DNA of 40,458 nucleotides from Hyphomicrobiales bacterium (GTDB taxonomy: Bacteria; Pseudomonadota; Alphaproteobacteria; Rhizobiales; JACESI01): contig JBDWKL010000020.1 of assembly GCA_039973685.1 (NCBI GenBank), forward strand, positions 1 to 40,458. The letters run 5' to 3'. This document shows, piece by piece, positions 5,328-11,747 of the stretch; within the stretch, counting starts at the first letter, position 1, and the number at the start of each line of letters is the position of its first letter. Below the pieces are notes generated by a model. It did no database searches, was not told where the DNA came from, and was given only the letters and a program-made list of their open reading frames with translations. Made by a program: the position numbers and the translations under genes.

Positions 5328-5355
5328 GCTAAGGGTCTAACCAGAGACCCTTAGC
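5328..5355 (-). other. Stem-loop spanning the stop codon of the tadG-like gene
   Basis: A perfect 11-bp inverted repeat, gctaagggtct (5328-5338) with agacccttagc (5345-5355), has a 6-base loop. It covers the last codons and the TAG stop (5337-5339) of the upstream gene and ends 23 bases before the next start. No run of T follows on the minus strand, so it does not look like a standard intrinsic terminator. An mRNA-processing, stabilising or partial-attenuation role would fit, but this is inference. Confidence 0.6.
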
Positions 5356-6782
5356 GTTGAAAGAGAACTACGGATCGCCTGAAACGCCGCCCCAATATTT
5401 AGGTTTTCAACCGCAAGGTGGTTGGAAGGTACAGAAGCGCAACTTTGCAAGAGAGCCGCCGCATCTGAGTTTTCATTGAGTTGGAAACCGATGGTGAAGA
5501 CAGCCACGTTATTTTGGCGGAAAGCTTCACAAGCCTCGATGAAATACGCAGAAGCTGTTCCTTGACCAATCTGATGGGAAGAATTACCTCGTGCATAAAT
5601 ATTCTGGCGGTTTCCACTATCGCCATTGTTCGTAACATCAACAACAGATGGATCTCTTTGGCGAATCTGTGCGGTAATACCACCATCTGTCATGATAATC
5701 GCAACTTTAAGTGTTTCAGGATCATCAAAATCAGCTGGACGGCTCGCAAAACCACCACCAAGCTTTCCACGCCATTCTGGTGAAAGCGAATTAAGGCCCC
5801 AAGCAGTACCATGGTCAGTTCCAGTACCATCAGACAATGTTAGCTCATTAATCCGATCTTTAATCGCTTCAAAGTTACTTGAATTAAAAATAGCTTTGGA
5901 TTTGTCACCAGGACACCATGGGTTACCAGTAACGTAGCGATAAAGCAGAGGAATTTGACCGCGCGAATGATCTGGAATTAACTCGCCTTCAAAATCATCA
6001 CGTTCCAATTCGAGACAAGTGCCACCATTAGAAAATCTAAATCCTGCATCTTGAACGCCGTTACCAATATTATATTGAGCTCTGGAAGGGTTATGGTTCG
6101 CCGTATTAATTAAAGCCGCATAATCATCAAAGACAGGCCCAACATTAACCGAGCCGCCGTAAGGGATAAGATTAATCGACACTTCGGCCGCGTTGCCGTC
6201 ATCACTAACGCTATCAACAAATTCGGTTGCCGCCGTTTTAAGTGCCGCTAATTTTGCACCGTTCATTGATGAGGAAACATCAAGAACCATAGCAATTTCT
6301 ACCTTTGTACGACTTTGTATAGCTTGTGCATCCGCATTCACGCCAAGTACATCAACGCCGAATATTTGCATAAATGAAGTCGGCATATCATATTGCGCAG
6401 CAACACGTATCGTACGAGCATTAAGCGAACGGTCATTTTGAAGAATAGACACATTGATGCCATTTCGGACTTCTTCATCATCGAAGTTTGCTTTTATATA
6501 ATCATCGATGGTTTCAGACGTCGGGCGCGCATTATCCAATGACGCGGCGGCCAAAACACCTGTTTCAACTGCACTTTGAAGCTGCGCTTCAATGTTTGAT
6601 TGGCGCACAAGGTCCACTGCTGAACTACCTGCGAATGCTGTAAGAGTGGTCAATACCACGCCTGCATACACTGAGATACTGCCTCTTTTGTCACCACAAA
6701 AGCGACTAGCTGTGCTCTTAAGGTTTTTCAAATGGGTCTTGAAAGGGAAAAGTTCTGCTACTTTTTGATTTTTTTCTGACAT
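5337..6782 (-). CDS. TadG-like protein with von Willebrand factor A domain
   Basis: Residues 31-80 form the TadG N-terminal pattern: CGDKRGSISVYAGVVLTTL, a membrane helix, then RQSNIEAQLQSAVETGVLAA. From about residue 160 a vWA domain follows with an intact MIDAS metal site, LDVSSSMNG (D168, S170, S172), and later IIMTDGG. It ends with a conserved helix, AFQAIRSSLSTLRVSG. TadG-type proteins are inner-membrane-anchored, periplasm-facing components associated with Tad pilus systems, and the vWA part probably binds a protein ligand through a divalent metal. I prefer the ATG at 6782 (481 aa), which has a gtgagag ribosome-binding site, over the in-frame GTG at 6797. It is first in the three-gene unit, with an AT-rich 190-base upstream region that probably holds the promoter. 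Confidence 0.8.
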   Translation of the reverse strand: MSEKNQKVAELFPFKTHLKNLKSTASRFCGDKRGSISVYAGVVLTTLTAFAGSSAVDLVRQSNIEAQLQSAVETGVLAAASLDNARPTSETIDDYIKANFDDEEVRNGINVSILQNDRSLNARTIRVAAQYDMPTSFMQIFGVDVLGVNADAQAIQSRTKVEIAMVLDVSSSMNGAKLAALKTAATEFVDSVSDDGNAAEVSINLIPYGGSVNVGPVFDDYAALINTANHNPSRAQYNIGNGVQDAGFRFSNGGTCLELERDDFEGELIPDHSRGQIPLLYRYVTGNPWCPGDKSKAIFNSSNFEAIKDRINELTLSDGTGTDHGTAWGLNSLSPEWRGKLGGGFASRPADFDDPETLKVAIIMTDGGITAQIRQRDPSVVDVTNNGDSGNRQNIYARGNSSHQIGQGTASAYFIEACEAFRQNNVAVFTIGFQLNENSDAAALLQSCASVPSNHLAVENLNIGAAFQAIRSSLSTLRVSG

Positions 6783-6973
6783 CACTACTACTCTCACTTA
6801 ATTTGATTGCAGCAGTTATAACAGTAAAAAATTTAGGCTCAGTAAAACGATTACCCGATTATTACTAAGTGGAATAAACTTTTTAGTAAGTCTTATCTAT
6901 TGCCCATAAAATCGACACAGAAAGTAAAAAACATCAACAATATCAATAAAATAAGATATTTCTCTTAGCTCTA

Positions 6974-7822: not shown

Positions 7823-8440
7823 TTAGCCACCCAAATGATCAAGTCCTATCGACTCACCTTCGCGAATGATCTCTGGGTCATAGGCTTTGCGAGCAAAGAC
7901 CTCGCGCACCATCGGCTCGAAATACTCAATCGGTTTACTCTTATAATCAGGGTCGAAAGAAGATTGGTCCCAGCGCTCGCAGAAGATGGCGCAGGTGTCA
8001 AAACACGGATGGTCCTTAAACCGGTCCCGCGCATTTTCATCCCAACCATAATGATGCGCATAATAGATCATCTGAAAAATACCGTGGTGTTCAATCACCC
8101 ACGACACTTCCCATCGCACAAAGGGACGGATTACTTCGGCAGAAAAGCGGTCATGGTTTTGTGGGGCAAGACCATCACCAACATCATGCAAGAGAGCGCC
8201 GACAATCCAATCTATATCAACGCCGTCTTCTTCCGCACGCGTGGCTGATTGAAGCGCATGATCAAGTCGCGTGATCTGATACCCTTCAATCGACACCTCA
8301 CCTTGCCTGCGCAATTCGTCCAGCACACGATCAGGGGTCAACGCGAGATACGGCTTTTCAAGCTCATGCAAAAGCTCGTAGTCGGCTTTTGTGCCGTCTT
8401 TCATCTGCGTGAAGGAAACCGTCGGTTTATGATCGTTCAT
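7823..8440 (-). CDS. HD-domain protein resembling PhnZ-type diiron oxygenases
   Basis: The 205-residue product has an HD-domain metal-ligand pattern: H61 (RLDHALQSA), H85-D86 (ALLHDVGDGL), H96 (QNHDRFSAE), H118/H119 (VIEHHG) and D158 (CERWDQSS). The order and spacing resemble PhnZ, whose mixed-valent diiron site cleaves the C-P bond of hydroxylated 2-aminoethylphosphonate, rather than HD phosphohydrolases. This comparison is from memory. The Tyr/Glu gating pair of PhnZ is not conserved in place; a Tyr sits seven residues before H61, where PhnZ has Glu. It starts 34 bases after the taurine:pyruvate aminotransferase gene on the same strand, so a joint pathway is likely. I chose ATG 8440 over an in-frame start at 8455. 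The substrate is unknown. Confidence 0.75.
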   Translation of the reverse strand: MNDHKPTVSFTQMKDGTKADYELLHELEKPYLALTPDRVLDELRRQGEVSIEGYQITRLDHALQSATRAEEDGVDIDWIVGALLHDVGDGLAPQNHDRFSAEVIRPFVRWEVSWVIEHHGIFQMIYYAHHYGWDENARDRFKDHPCFDTCAIFCERWDQSSFDPDYKSKPIEYFEPMVREVFARKAYDPEIIREGESIGLDHLGG

Positions 8441-8474
8441 GGGAAACCCGCCCAAAGTTACAAAGGATCAACGC

Positions 8475-9860
8475 TTACGCAGTCACGCGCGTAATTGCGC
8501 CATCGATGGCAGTTAGGATCTCATCAATATCATCTTTTGTACAGATCAATGCAGGGCTGAGACACAACGTGTTGTTAAAGCCTTTCAGTGAACGATTGGT
8601 CACACCAATCACAACGGCACTTTCCTTAAAGCAATCACCAACAATCGCCTGAGCAATCGCCTCATTGATCGGTTCTTTGGTGCCGCGGTCCGCCACAAGC
8701 TCCGCACCGCAGAACAAGCCCTTGCCGCGTACATCACCGATGATTTGGTGTTTGCTTTTCAAACGCTCCAAGCCTTCAAGCACATATTCACCCATCGCTG
8801 TGGTATTTTCCAAAAGCTTCTCATCTTCCAAAATACGCATATTCTCAAGTGCAGCCGCTGGACCTGCCGTGCAACCGCCGAAGGTAGAAATATCGCGGAA
8901 ATAGCTCATTGGATCAGACGGGTCCGCTTTGAAGTCTTGGAAAACAGCTTCTGTCGTCACTGTGCAAGAAATCGCTGCATAGCCAGAGGCAACCCCCTTC
9001 GCCATTGTCACCATATCAGGCTCAATGCCATAATGCTGATAGCCGAACCATGTGCCCGTGCGGCCCATGCCACAGACCACTTCATCAATGTGCAGCAACA
9101 CATCATACTTCTTACAAATTTCCTGAACGCGCTCCCAATAGCCCTCTGGCGGGGTAATAACGCCGCCACCAGCAGTGATCGGCTCGAGACAGAGCGCACC
9201 AACCGTGTCAGGCCCTTCACGCAGGATCACGTCTTCAATGGCGTTAGCCGCGCGGATACCGTAATCATCCACATCGCCCCATTGCGAACGATACTCAAGA
9301 CAATGCGGCACTTCCACAAAACCTGGTGTGAACGGACCATACTGACCCTTGCGCTCATCTTGACCACCAGCAGAAAGGCAAGCAATCGTGGTGCCGTGGT
9401 AGTCACGATCGCGGTACAGAATTTTGTGTTTCTTGCCGCCATATTTATTATAGGCAATCTGGCGCACCATCTTAAAGCATTTCTCATTCGCCTCAGAGCC
9501 AGAGTTTGAATAATAAACGCGGCTCATACCGGGCATTTTCTCAATCAAGCGCTCGGAGAACAAGGCACCTGGGATAGACCCCATGGAGCCCGCAAAATAA
9601 TTCATCTTCACCAGTTGATCGCGCACAGCATCCGCAATGCTCTCACGGCCATAGCCAACGTTCACAGTCCATACACCGCCAGAGACGGCATCAAGATGCT
9701 CACGCCCTGCTTGGTTCCAAACCCGCATGCCTTTACCTTCAACAATGATTTGAGGATCAGCATCATCAAATTTTTGGTGTTGGGTAAGATGGTGCCAAAC
9801 GTGGGCTTTATCAGCTTCAACAACGTGGCTTAGATCATTTTGTGTAAGAGGCAAATTCAT
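8475..9860 (-). CDS. tpa: Taurine:pyruvate aminotransferase (class III)
   Basis: This PLP enzyme moves the amino group of taurine to pyruvate, giving sulfoacetaldehyde and alanine. It is a 461-residue class III aminotransferase with PLP lysine K288 (MVTMAKGVASGY), the cofactor-ring Asp in LLHIDEVVCGMGRTG (D259), and the phosphate-binding YYSNSGSEANEKCFKM. The assignment to Tpa rather than other omega-aminotransferases rests on recalled Tpa-specific stretches: KAHVWHHLTQH, LDAVSGGVWTVNVGYGRES and YFRDISTFGGCTAGPAAAL. The ATG at 9860 has a tggaga ribosome-binding site; an in-frame TTG at 9875 is less likely. No xsc, tauABC or ald gene is in the window. A closely related substrate such as hypotaurine cannot be excluded. 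Confidence 0.85.
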   Translation of the reverse strand: MNLPLTQNDLSHVVEADKAHVWHHLTQHQKFDDADPQIIVEGKGMRVWNQAGREHLDAVSGGVWTVNVGYGRESIADAVRDQLVKMNYFAGSMGSIPGALFSERLIEKMPGMSRVYYSNSGSEANEKCFKMVRQIAYNKYGGKKHKILYRDRDYHGTTIACLSAGGQDERKGQYGPFTPGFVEVPHCLEYRSQWGDVDDYGIRAANAIEDVILREGPDTVGALCLEPITAGGGVITPPEGYWERVQEICKKYDVLLHIDEVVCGMGRTGTWFGYQHYGIEPDMVTMAKGVASGYAAISCTVTTEAVFQDFKADPSDPMSYFRDISTFGGCTAGPAAALENMRILEDEKLLENTTAMGEYVLEGLERLKSKHQIIGDVRGKGLFCGAELVADRGTKEPINEAIAQAIVGDCFKESAVVIGVTNRSLKGFNNTLCLSPALICTKDDIDEILTAIDGAITRVTA

Positions 9861-10835: not shown

Positions 10836-11747
10836 TTACACCTTCTTCTTCGCATTCTTGCGTGAAAAAATATCAGACGCCAAGGCCACAGCCGCAGCAG
10901 TGATAAGCATGCCGACCACCTGCACGGTTGTCAGTGTATCACCGAATAAGTAGTAGCCTTCAACGGCCGAGAAAACTGGCACGAGATAAAAAACACTCGC
11001 AACCTTCGTCGCACCACCTTGTTGCAACAAATACATATAGAGCGTGAAGGCGATGCAAGAGAGGATCAAGGTCATCCATGCATAGCCAATGATCAGATCA
11101 CGGGCGAAAATGAAATTGAAACTTTCGCTAAACAAAGCAATAGGCAGTGCCACCAAAAGCCCGCCGATCAACTGCAATCCTGGCTCTGTTTTAAAATTCA
11201 TCGCGCCAACATATTTCTTTTGGAAAATCGAACCAAAAGTAATGCCAAGCACTGCAATAATATGCGCACCCACCGTGATGGCCGTAATGCCGCTCCCATC
11301 AAGACCCAGCTTAGGCGATACCACTAGCCCGCAACCAACAATGCCGATCAACAATCCAAGCCAATGACGAGGACTAATTTTCTCGCCCAAAATTGGACTA
11401 GCAAAGATCGCGGTCAACAAAGGCTGTAACCCGACAAGCAACGCGCTAACACCGGCAGGCATGCCATTTTTGACACCCCAAAATACAGCGCTCAAATAAA
11501 CCCCATGGATCAACGCGCCTGACACAATGATTTTAAGTGCGCGCTCTTTGTTTGGCCAAACACCGCGCGAAAGCAAGCCGAACAGCAAAAGCACAATGGC
11601 CGCACCGCCAAACCGCAGGGTTAAAATAGATAAGGGTTCAGAATAGGGCGCAACAAGAGCTGCAACCACAAATCCGGTTGACCATAAAAACACAAAGAGA
11701 AGAGGAAGTCCGACACCCATGCGGCCACTTAGCCAGAAGCGATGCAT
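10836..11747 (-). CDS. DMT-superfamily (EamA) permease
   Basis: A 303-residue integral inner-membrane protein with about ten hydrophobic helices in two EamA repeats. The first opens LPLLFVFLWSTGFVVAAL and the second GAHIIAVLGITFGSIFQ. The typical EamA Pro- and Gly-rich helices include GLQPLLTAIFASPILGEKIS and SVFYLVPVFSAVEGYYLFGD. The substrate is unknown; the family exports amino acids, metabolites and other small molecules. It is four bases upstream of the SDR gene on the same strand. The start at 11747 has a weak ribosome-binding site, and the ATG at 11720 is a possible alternative. The C-terminal tail RKNAKKKV is cytoplasmic in the usual topology. Confidence 0.88.
   Translation of the reverse strand: MHRFWLSGRMGVGLPLLFVFLWSTGFVVAALVAPYSEPLSILTLRFGGAAIVLLLFGLLSRGVWPNKERALKIIVSGALIHGVYLSAVFWGVKNGMPAGVSALLVGLQPLLTAIFASPILGEKISPRHWLGLLIGIVGCGLVVSPKLGLDGSGITAITVGAHIIAVLGITFGSIFQKKYVGAMNFKTEPGLQLIGGLLVALPIALFSESFNFIFARDLIIGYAWMTLILSCIAFTLYMYLLQQGGATKVASVFYLVPVFSAVEGYYLFGDTLTTVQVVGMLITAAAVALASDIFSRKNAKKKV

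Follow-up and report, generated by a model that had tools for sequence, protein, structure and literature searches.

A widespread proteobacterial family of PhnZ- and TmpB-like HD-domain proteins with a re-made substrate pocket and putative links to carnitine

The stretch analyzed here, called the window below, comprises 40,458 nucleotides from a Hyphomicrobiales bacterium (assembly GCA_039973685.1, contig JBDWKL010000020.1, positions 1 to 40,458) and carries a gene for an HD-domain protein directly behind a putative taurine:pyruvate aminotransferase gene (tpa). Our analyses showed that the HD-domain protein belongs to an unnamed family, a widespread proteobacterial sister of PhnZ and TmpB, which shares their six-ligand site and has a re-made substrate pocket. 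HD diiron oxygenases as a kind are known from PhnZ, TmpB and myo-inositol oxygenase (MIOX); new here is the family with the changed pocket. We see about an even chance that its members are diiron oxygenases that take over where a hydroxylase has acted, their substrates probably being trimethylammonium compounds or related carboxylates tied to carnitine, and that the window copy is stranded beside tpa without a link to taurine.

Fold, metal ligands and substrate pocket

The gene and the codons that matter for its assignment are placed as follows. Conservation was counted over 103 alignment rows (31 of alignment A1 and 72 of A2, with the window row in each), which hold 101 distinct sequences.

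7823..8440, minus strand: gene for an HD-domain protein of 205 amino acids, putative PhnZ/TmpB-like diiron oxygenase of an unnamed family (open reading frame; Pfam HD, 31 bits; AlphaFold2 model; PhnZ match)
8267..8269, minus strand: codon of R58, three residues before H61, the Arg position of HD phosphohydrolases (R in 103/103 rows)
8258..8260, minus strand: codon of H61, first metal ligand (H in 103/103 rows)
8183..8188, minus strand: codons of H85 and D86, metal ligands (103/103 rows)
8174..8176, minus strand: codon of D89, in place of the HDxGH His of PhnZ/TmpB (D in 102/103 rows, E in one)
8153..8155, minus strand: codon of H96, metal ligand (H in 103/103 rows)
8084..8086, minus strand: codon of H119, metal ligand (H in 103/103 rows)
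8072..8074, minus strand: codon of Q123, in place of the TmpB Lys, four residues past the matching His ligand (Q in 103/103 rows)
7967..7969, minus strand: codon of D158, metal ligand (D in 103/103 rows)

The ATG start gives 205 amino acids and fits the residue numbering of the original prediction exactly; an alternative TTG at 8455 is also possible.

The AlphaFold2 model of the window protein has a mean pLDDT of 95.1, and all ten Foldseek matches at E < 0.001 were PhnZ or TmpB. With VIA-align, PhnZ (Z 17.6), TmpB (16.4) and MIOX (11.6) outranked every other fold entry listed (8.2 or less), YqeK-type chains lying well under the oxygenases at 6.1. The HD-oxygenase models for phosphonates, TIGR03276, NF049941 and NF052439, are each matched by all 72 A2 members. 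Fold and profile together support the label "PhnZ-like" given to the protein from the sequence alone. The window protein stays far below the cut-offs of these models, with 40.5, 32.8 and 27.0 bits against 214.6, 300 and 300 for TIGR03276, the TmpB model and the PhnZ1 model, respectively. In public records, family members are annotated as HD domain-containing protein, inositol oxygenase family protein, phosphohydrolase or hypothetical protein, and no viral copies close to the family were confirmed.

The six putative metal ligands H61, H85, D86, H96, H119 and D158 are invariant in all rows. At the position first given as H118/119, H119 is thus the ligand candidate that stood, and H118 is variable (H in 65, K in 17 and T in 10 rows). 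The pocket around this site has changed. According to the available part of PMC8177086, PhnZ and TmpB bind their substrates with a YxxE loop. The family has no such loop: its Tyr position (I51 in the window protein) holds L in 77 rows, I in 10 and Tyr in only 1, and its Glu position (Y54) holds Y in 99, F in three, C in one and Glu in none. Furthermore, both basic positions of the PhnZ/TmpB pocket, the HDxGH His and the Lys four residues past the ligand, are D or E and Q in all rows. In PhnZ and TmpB these basic residues hold the phosphonate.

Both HD types can be compared side by side in Halomonas urmiana (L117:6849-11296), where a TauD-HD pair of the new type adjoins an open reading frame over the TmpA cut-off (563 bits, cut-off 400) and a TmpB-like HD protein that keeps the YxxE loop (263.5 bits, cut-off 300). 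Compared with this paralog, the window protein has I for Y (a position that is mostly L or I across the family), Y54 for E, R58 for M, D89 for H and Q123 for K.

The ligands alone do not identify an oxygenase, because YqeK, an Ap4A hydrolase, has the same H...HD...H...H...D six-ligand motif, and an Arg three residues before the first His, the place of the invariant R58, is conserved in HD phosphohydrolases (PMC8177086, available part). The family might hence comprise dinuclear, YqeK-like HD hydrolases of a small phosphorylated or other ester metabolite that involve no O2 chemistry. R58 keeps this alternative alive, and one plasmid record labels a member as phosphohydrolase. However, we regard it as unlikely: the hydrolases listed reach a Z of 8.2 at most as compared with 16–18 for PhnZ and TmpB, every A2 member matches the oxygenase models, and in part of the family the tight pairing with a 2-oxoglutarate hydroxylase mirrors PhnYZ and TmpAB.

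Hydroxylase partners and carnitine loci

The gene neighborhood was compared across 114 HD loci (113 distinct, L104 repeating L052) with 1,479 neighboring genes, 227 of them at rank 1. Neighbors came from a composition-scored gene caller checked on annotated loci; it did not call the HD gene of L039, and all HD positions come from tblastn. Hidden Markov models of partners were built from neighbors within four genes of the HD gene, rank-1 genes included, and then run over all locus genes.

In 29 of 114 loci (16 TauD, 13 PhyH), a 2-oxoglutarate oxygenase, the commonest partner, adjoins the HD gene on its own strand. TauD-like genes stood at rank 1 in 18 of 19 cases and PhyH genes in 13 of 14 (Fisher p 2e-14 and 2e-10, both ignoring shared ancestry). 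In a second sample of 27 loci (25 new ones), eight such genes, two TauD and six PhyH, preceded the HD gene on its strand at a distance of up to 1.5 kb, and seven of the eight came from new loci. All ten HD-linked TauD proteins that were scanned matched TmpA or butyrobetaine dioxygenase models best, with two over and eight under the TmpA cut-off. The one HD-linked PhyH partner scanned is a Pfam PhyH match, i.e., a member of the family of phytanoyl-CoA alpha-hydroxylase.

In a midpoint-rooted tree, the window protein groups (100/96) with L078, L079 and L099, and in L078 and L079 a PhyH gene lies 17–36 bases upstream of the HD gene. Most TauD-linked members fall outside the groups that hold the PhyH-linked and carnitine-operon members, with the exceptions L098, L102, L111 and L112. 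A LysR regulator shared by TauD-HD and PhyH-HD operons was considered and rejected, the regulators being 23–36% alike across the two types. Other neighbors also recur: M24 peptidase/creatinase-like genes, named by reading the sequence, adjoin the HD gene in some closer order-level relatives (L048:8001-9128, L049:3334-4434, L051:7977-9329). Large molybdenum-hydroxylase-like subunits of the CO or glyceraldehyde dehydrogenase family are found near HD or PhyH-HD (L212:535-2835, L213:9662-11977, and cluster c20 in L046, L129, L148 and L152); the one subunit scanned was below the cut-offs.

Genes of carnitine degradation form a further neighborhood. In 14 Mesorhizobium-type loci, BKACE and a gene of the carnitine 3-dehydrogenase type flank the HD gene (the one dehydrogenase scanned reached 596.7 bits, cut-off 592). 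Downstream come an enoyl-CoA hydratase (scanned) and, by eye, acyl-CoA dehydrogenase and CoA-ligase-like genes. No hydroxylase adjoins the HD gene in these operons. Three loci from Rhodobacteraceae have a similar layout. In three other places, TauD-HD pairs lie among carnitine genes or no more than about 4–5 kb away from them. In genome G414 (L209), the gene after TauD-HD codes for a choline-type binding protein (257 bits against a cut-off of 379). GbdR-like regulators (240 and 324 bits against 480), BKACE, a thioesterase-type gene and an L-carnitine dehydrogenase (413.7 bits against 414) stand beside the pair. The Pelagibacteraceae locus L145 combines TauD-HD with a gene of the carnitine dehydrogenase type (391.9 bits, cut-off 414), with BKACE and with another TauD, all within about 6 kb. 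In the Comamonadaceae locus L123, an L-carnitine dehydrogenase over the cut-off (619.7 bits) and BKACE also lie within about 6 kb of TauD-HD. The carnitine genes of L145 and L123 are on the opposite strand. On the Pseudomonas aeruginosa plasmid pF045_1 the order is TauD, HD, choline binding protein, choline dehydrogenase and aldehyde dehydrogenase. We also considered that the HD protein might stand in for the betainyl-CoA thioesterase absent from the short carnitine dehydrogenase of the Mesorhizobium-type loci, but do not favor this, since L137, L141 and L143 have HD near a long dehydrogenase of 485–502 amino acids. Class II aldolase/adducin genes recur beside or near HD in L107, L043, L079 and L123.

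At the genome level, the HD family (E 1e-25) was found in 59 of 398 genomes sampled from the phylum. The cut for a close HD protein (E 9.8e-66 or better) was set with the data in view. Of the 23 genomes that fall within it, 21 match carnitine dehydrogenase (E 1e-90), compared with 59 of 398 overall, 35 of these 59 over the curated cut-off. In the two others, G255 and G480, a TauD gene lies upstream of HD. The trimethylammonium or carnitine link is suggested by gene neighborhood but unproven.

We infer iron, oxygenase activity and substrate from likeness to known two-step systems. In PhnYZ and TmpAB, a hydroxylase first adds a hydroxyl group to the carbon beside the bond that the HD enzyme then cleaves with O2 (PMC8177086 and PMC10574752, available parts). 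By analogy, a 2-oxoglutarate oxygenase, either a TauD protein resembling TmpA and butyrobetaine hydroxylase or a PhyH protein, would hydroxylate a carbon, and the HD enzyme would use O2 to break the adjacent C–X bond, as PhnZ does after PhnY. The substrates would be hydroxylated trimethylammonium or related carboxylates and not phosphonates or sulfonates. Carnitine can be seen as the TmpB substrate with CH2COO in place of PO3, and a reaction of carnitine with O2 to glycine betaine and glycolate would balance, as would a 2-hydroxy acid route yielding bicarbonate. R58 could hold the carboxylate and Y54 and D89 the cationic head group. Only tentatively do we go one step further and propose a C–C-cleaving counterpart of TmpB in trimethylammonium catabolism. 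Such a mixed-valent diiron HD oxygenase would split either a hydroxylated betaine, for instance carnitine, or a 2-hydroxy acid, the latter into bicarbonate and an acid shortened by one carbon, and would have exchanged its hydroxylase partners between the TauD and PhyH types as the family spread.

Besides R58 and the ligand motif shared with YqeK, several observations weigh against an oxygenase linked to carnitine. In 85 of the 114 loci the HD gene has no adjacent 2-oxoglutarate partner on the same strand. Distant HD members show no excess of carnitine dehydrogenase (6/36), and no carnitine genes were seen near PhyH-HD in L212 and L213, the two loci read at length. Tpa was likewise found in 10 of the 23 close-HD genomes, against 23 in the whole set of 398, and a carnitine dehydrogenase is present in 18 of those 23 Tpa genomes; since Tpa thus shares genomes with both, the co-occurrence of HD and carnitine dehydrogenase is confounded by ancestry. 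The window genome itself has a carnitine operon on contig C25 (L206:5449-12525) with a GbdR-like regulator, BKACE, a fused dehydrogenase-thioesterase, an acyl-CoA dehydrogenase and a CoA-ligase-like gene, and here the place between BKACE and the dehydrogenase is filled not by HD but by a gene whose sequence reads as lipocalin. Nor does the window HD protein have its usual partner, because a Pfam TauD search with a positive Escherichia coli control found no TauD-domain match in the genome and the best PhyH match was only 28%, with none close. The absence of TauD rests on the Pfam search, as NF049936 gave no match in the window genome or in the controls. Finally, the TauD proteins of L098 (581 bits) and G414 (423 bits) exceed the TmpA phosphonate cut-off of 400.

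A variant of the two-step scheme is alpha-oxidation, in which PhyH or TauD would hydroxylate next to a carboxylate and the HD enzyme would cut the C1–C2 bond to give bicarbonate and an acid one carbon shorter, as a carbon analog of PhnZ. The balance of a 2-hydroxy acid and O2 to the shorter acid and H2CO3, the Pfam PhyH identity of the one partner scanned and a carboxylate held by R58 would fit. We nevertheless consider it rather improbable: the Mesorhizobium-type operons lack the adjacent hydroxylase, and carnitine, the substrate expected from these loci, is already hydroxylated.

Still less do we expect a TmpB- or PhnZ-type activity on another hydroxylated phosphonate. The two TauD proteins over the TmpA cut-off (L098, L209) among the ten scanned point in this direction, as does L117, where the new pair adjoins a TmpA-TmpB-like pair. 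However, the Glu of YxxE and the basic positions of the phosphonate pocket are lost in all 103 rows, the window protein reaches 27–41 bits against cut-offs of 214–300, and of the 43 genes called in the window, the 26 scanned included no phosphonate gene over its cut-off.

The hydroxylase-dependent oxygenase linked to carnitine thus remains the reading that we favor. HD oxygenases with known substrates are few, namely MIOX, the PhnZ types and TmpB (PMC8177086 and PMC10574752, available parts). The family, which occurs in 59 of 398 sampled genomes of the phylum, combines unchanged ligands and a re-made pocket with links to carnitine loci and with 2-oxoglutarate hydroxylase partners of two unrelated types. 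If the reading is true, it would add C–C cleavage chemistry and perhaps an extra route of betaine or carnitine turnover, also in a Pelagibacteraceae relative.

The tpa neighbor and the taurine route

In the window, the HD gene follows the aminotransferase gene on the same strand, and the two are likely, if putatively, co-transcribed. Both open reading frames, the gap and the ligand pattern were found where the original prediction had placed them.

8475..9860, minus strand: Tpa, taurine/hypotaurine:pyruvate aminotransferase, 461 amino acids from ATG (Aminotran_3; identity to plasmid-borne relatives)
8441..8474, minus strand: gap of 34 bases from tpa to the HD gene, between the two open reading frames

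The aminotransferase is a Pfam Aminotran_3 match and is over no NCBIfam cut-off among the matches listed (25 models; best PRK07678, 442.8 of 488 bits). It shares 72–77% identity with the 20 listed of 31 plasmid-borne relatives, and four of these 20 (H19, H25, H32, H33; 72–75%) are annotated as hypotaurine--pyruvate aminotransferase Tpa, so that Tpa is a fair name. Eight further copies, 69–87% identical, were found in seven of 120 relatives' genomes. Nearby, 10836-11747 (minus strand) encodes an EamA transporter that weakly matches TIGR03340, a model of a phosphonate-utilisation-associated membrane protein (37 bits, cut-off 288), and 5337-6797 (minus strand) encodes a protein that matches von Willebrand factor A (32 bits) and may belong to a Tad-type pilus system.

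From the lack of xsc and tauABC nearby, a non-standard taurine route had been thought conceivable. Indeed no xsc or tau gene was recognized among the window genes scanned, but xsc is present on another contig of the same genome (C3; 953 bits, cut-off 676), directly followed by a gene that reads by eye as phosphate acetyltransferase. As judged from these genes, the usual Tpa-Xsc-Pta route appears to be present, though unclustered, and since the genome has xsc, a non-standard route is unnecessary.

The pairing itself is not conserved. In the 398 genomes, Tpa (E 1e-180) was found in 23 and together with the HD family in 10, and only in the window genome are the two genes adjacent; in the other nine they lie on different contigs, where adjacency across a contig break is possible, or more than 2 Mb apart in contig coordinates. 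Conservation across genomes had been suggested as a check, and a pair confined to this genome was the outcome named in advance as speaking against the idea. Tpa-like genes occur in none of 80 named HD loci (E 1e-10), and the window's aminotransferase family is absent from 27 further HD loci. Class III aminotransferases are present in four of the 114 loci, the window included; those of L058, L061 and L062 are about 32% identical to the window Tpa, and that of L058 adjoins HD on the opposite strand. Conversely, no HD protein of this family was encoded in the tpa regions read from five other genomes (two of them from the genus of this bacterium, one of these two being a contig of just 4,024 bases), and three congeners searched gave no HD match.

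We thus reject the proposal that a sulfonate-directed HD oxygenase acts alongside Tpa, on hydroxylated taurine or on what Tpa produces: the 34-base same-strand gap and the sharing of genomes by Tpa and close HD above chance, though more strongly so for carnitine dehydrogenase, leave it barely credible against an adjacency in one of ten genomes, tpa regions without a family HD, the presence of xsc and the lost basic positions of the PhnZ/TmpB pocket. Most likely the pairing is an accident of one genome, because HD relatives elsewhere often stand beside oxygen-using hydroxylases or carnitine-degradation genes, and it is itself without importance. The tree sisters of the window protein belong to Rhodobacterales or unclassified Alphaproteobacteria, unlike the relatives of the window genome, which include a contig identical to a Hyphomicrobiales record (L052, L104); we hence infer that the HD gene was likely gained laterally. 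It probably landed behind tpa with no pathway tie to taurine.

Likeness to known systems

Several HD genes of the family lie inside or near bacterial carnitine catabolism loci with carnitine 3-dehydrogenase, BKACE, thioesterase and a GbdR-like regulator. We know of no HD step in the bacterial route of carnitine catabolism, and the open-licence literature searched yielded no link between HD oxygenases and carnitine. L145 resembles a published island of SAR11 that contains carnitine dehydrogenase, BKACE and butyrobetaine dioxygenases; in the available part of that work a class II aldolase is also named, and no HD protein is named for the island (PMC12421898).

As far as PMC8177086 is available, YqeK is like the family in its six ligands and the Arg three residues before the first His; it differs by a much weaker fold match and an unrelated gene context. 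MIOX (2HUO) shares the HD oxygenase fold and sets a precedent for C–C cleavage, but is only 15% identical, is larger and works without a partner hydroxylase (PMC8177086, available part).

TmpB, the (R)-1-hydroxy-2-trimethylaminoethylphosphonate oxygenase that works with TmpA (6NPA), resembles the family in the fold of the predicted model, in the six ligands and in the pairing of part of the family with TauD proteins like TmpA and butyrobetaine dioxygenase (BBOX). In contrast, its YxxE loop, HDxGH His and +4 Lys are replaced by I51/Y54, D89 and Q123, R58 is added, and the window protein scores 33 bits against a cut-off of 300. The 2-amino-1-hydroxyethylphosphonate oxygenase PhnZ (4N71, with PhnY) is only 23% identical to the window protein, its Y24 and E27 aligning with I51 and Y54 and its H62 with D89. 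It is nevertheless the best structural match (3.3 Å over 154 residues), and PhnY and PhnZ follow the two-step logic with a 2-oxoglutarate hydroxylase that we propose here.

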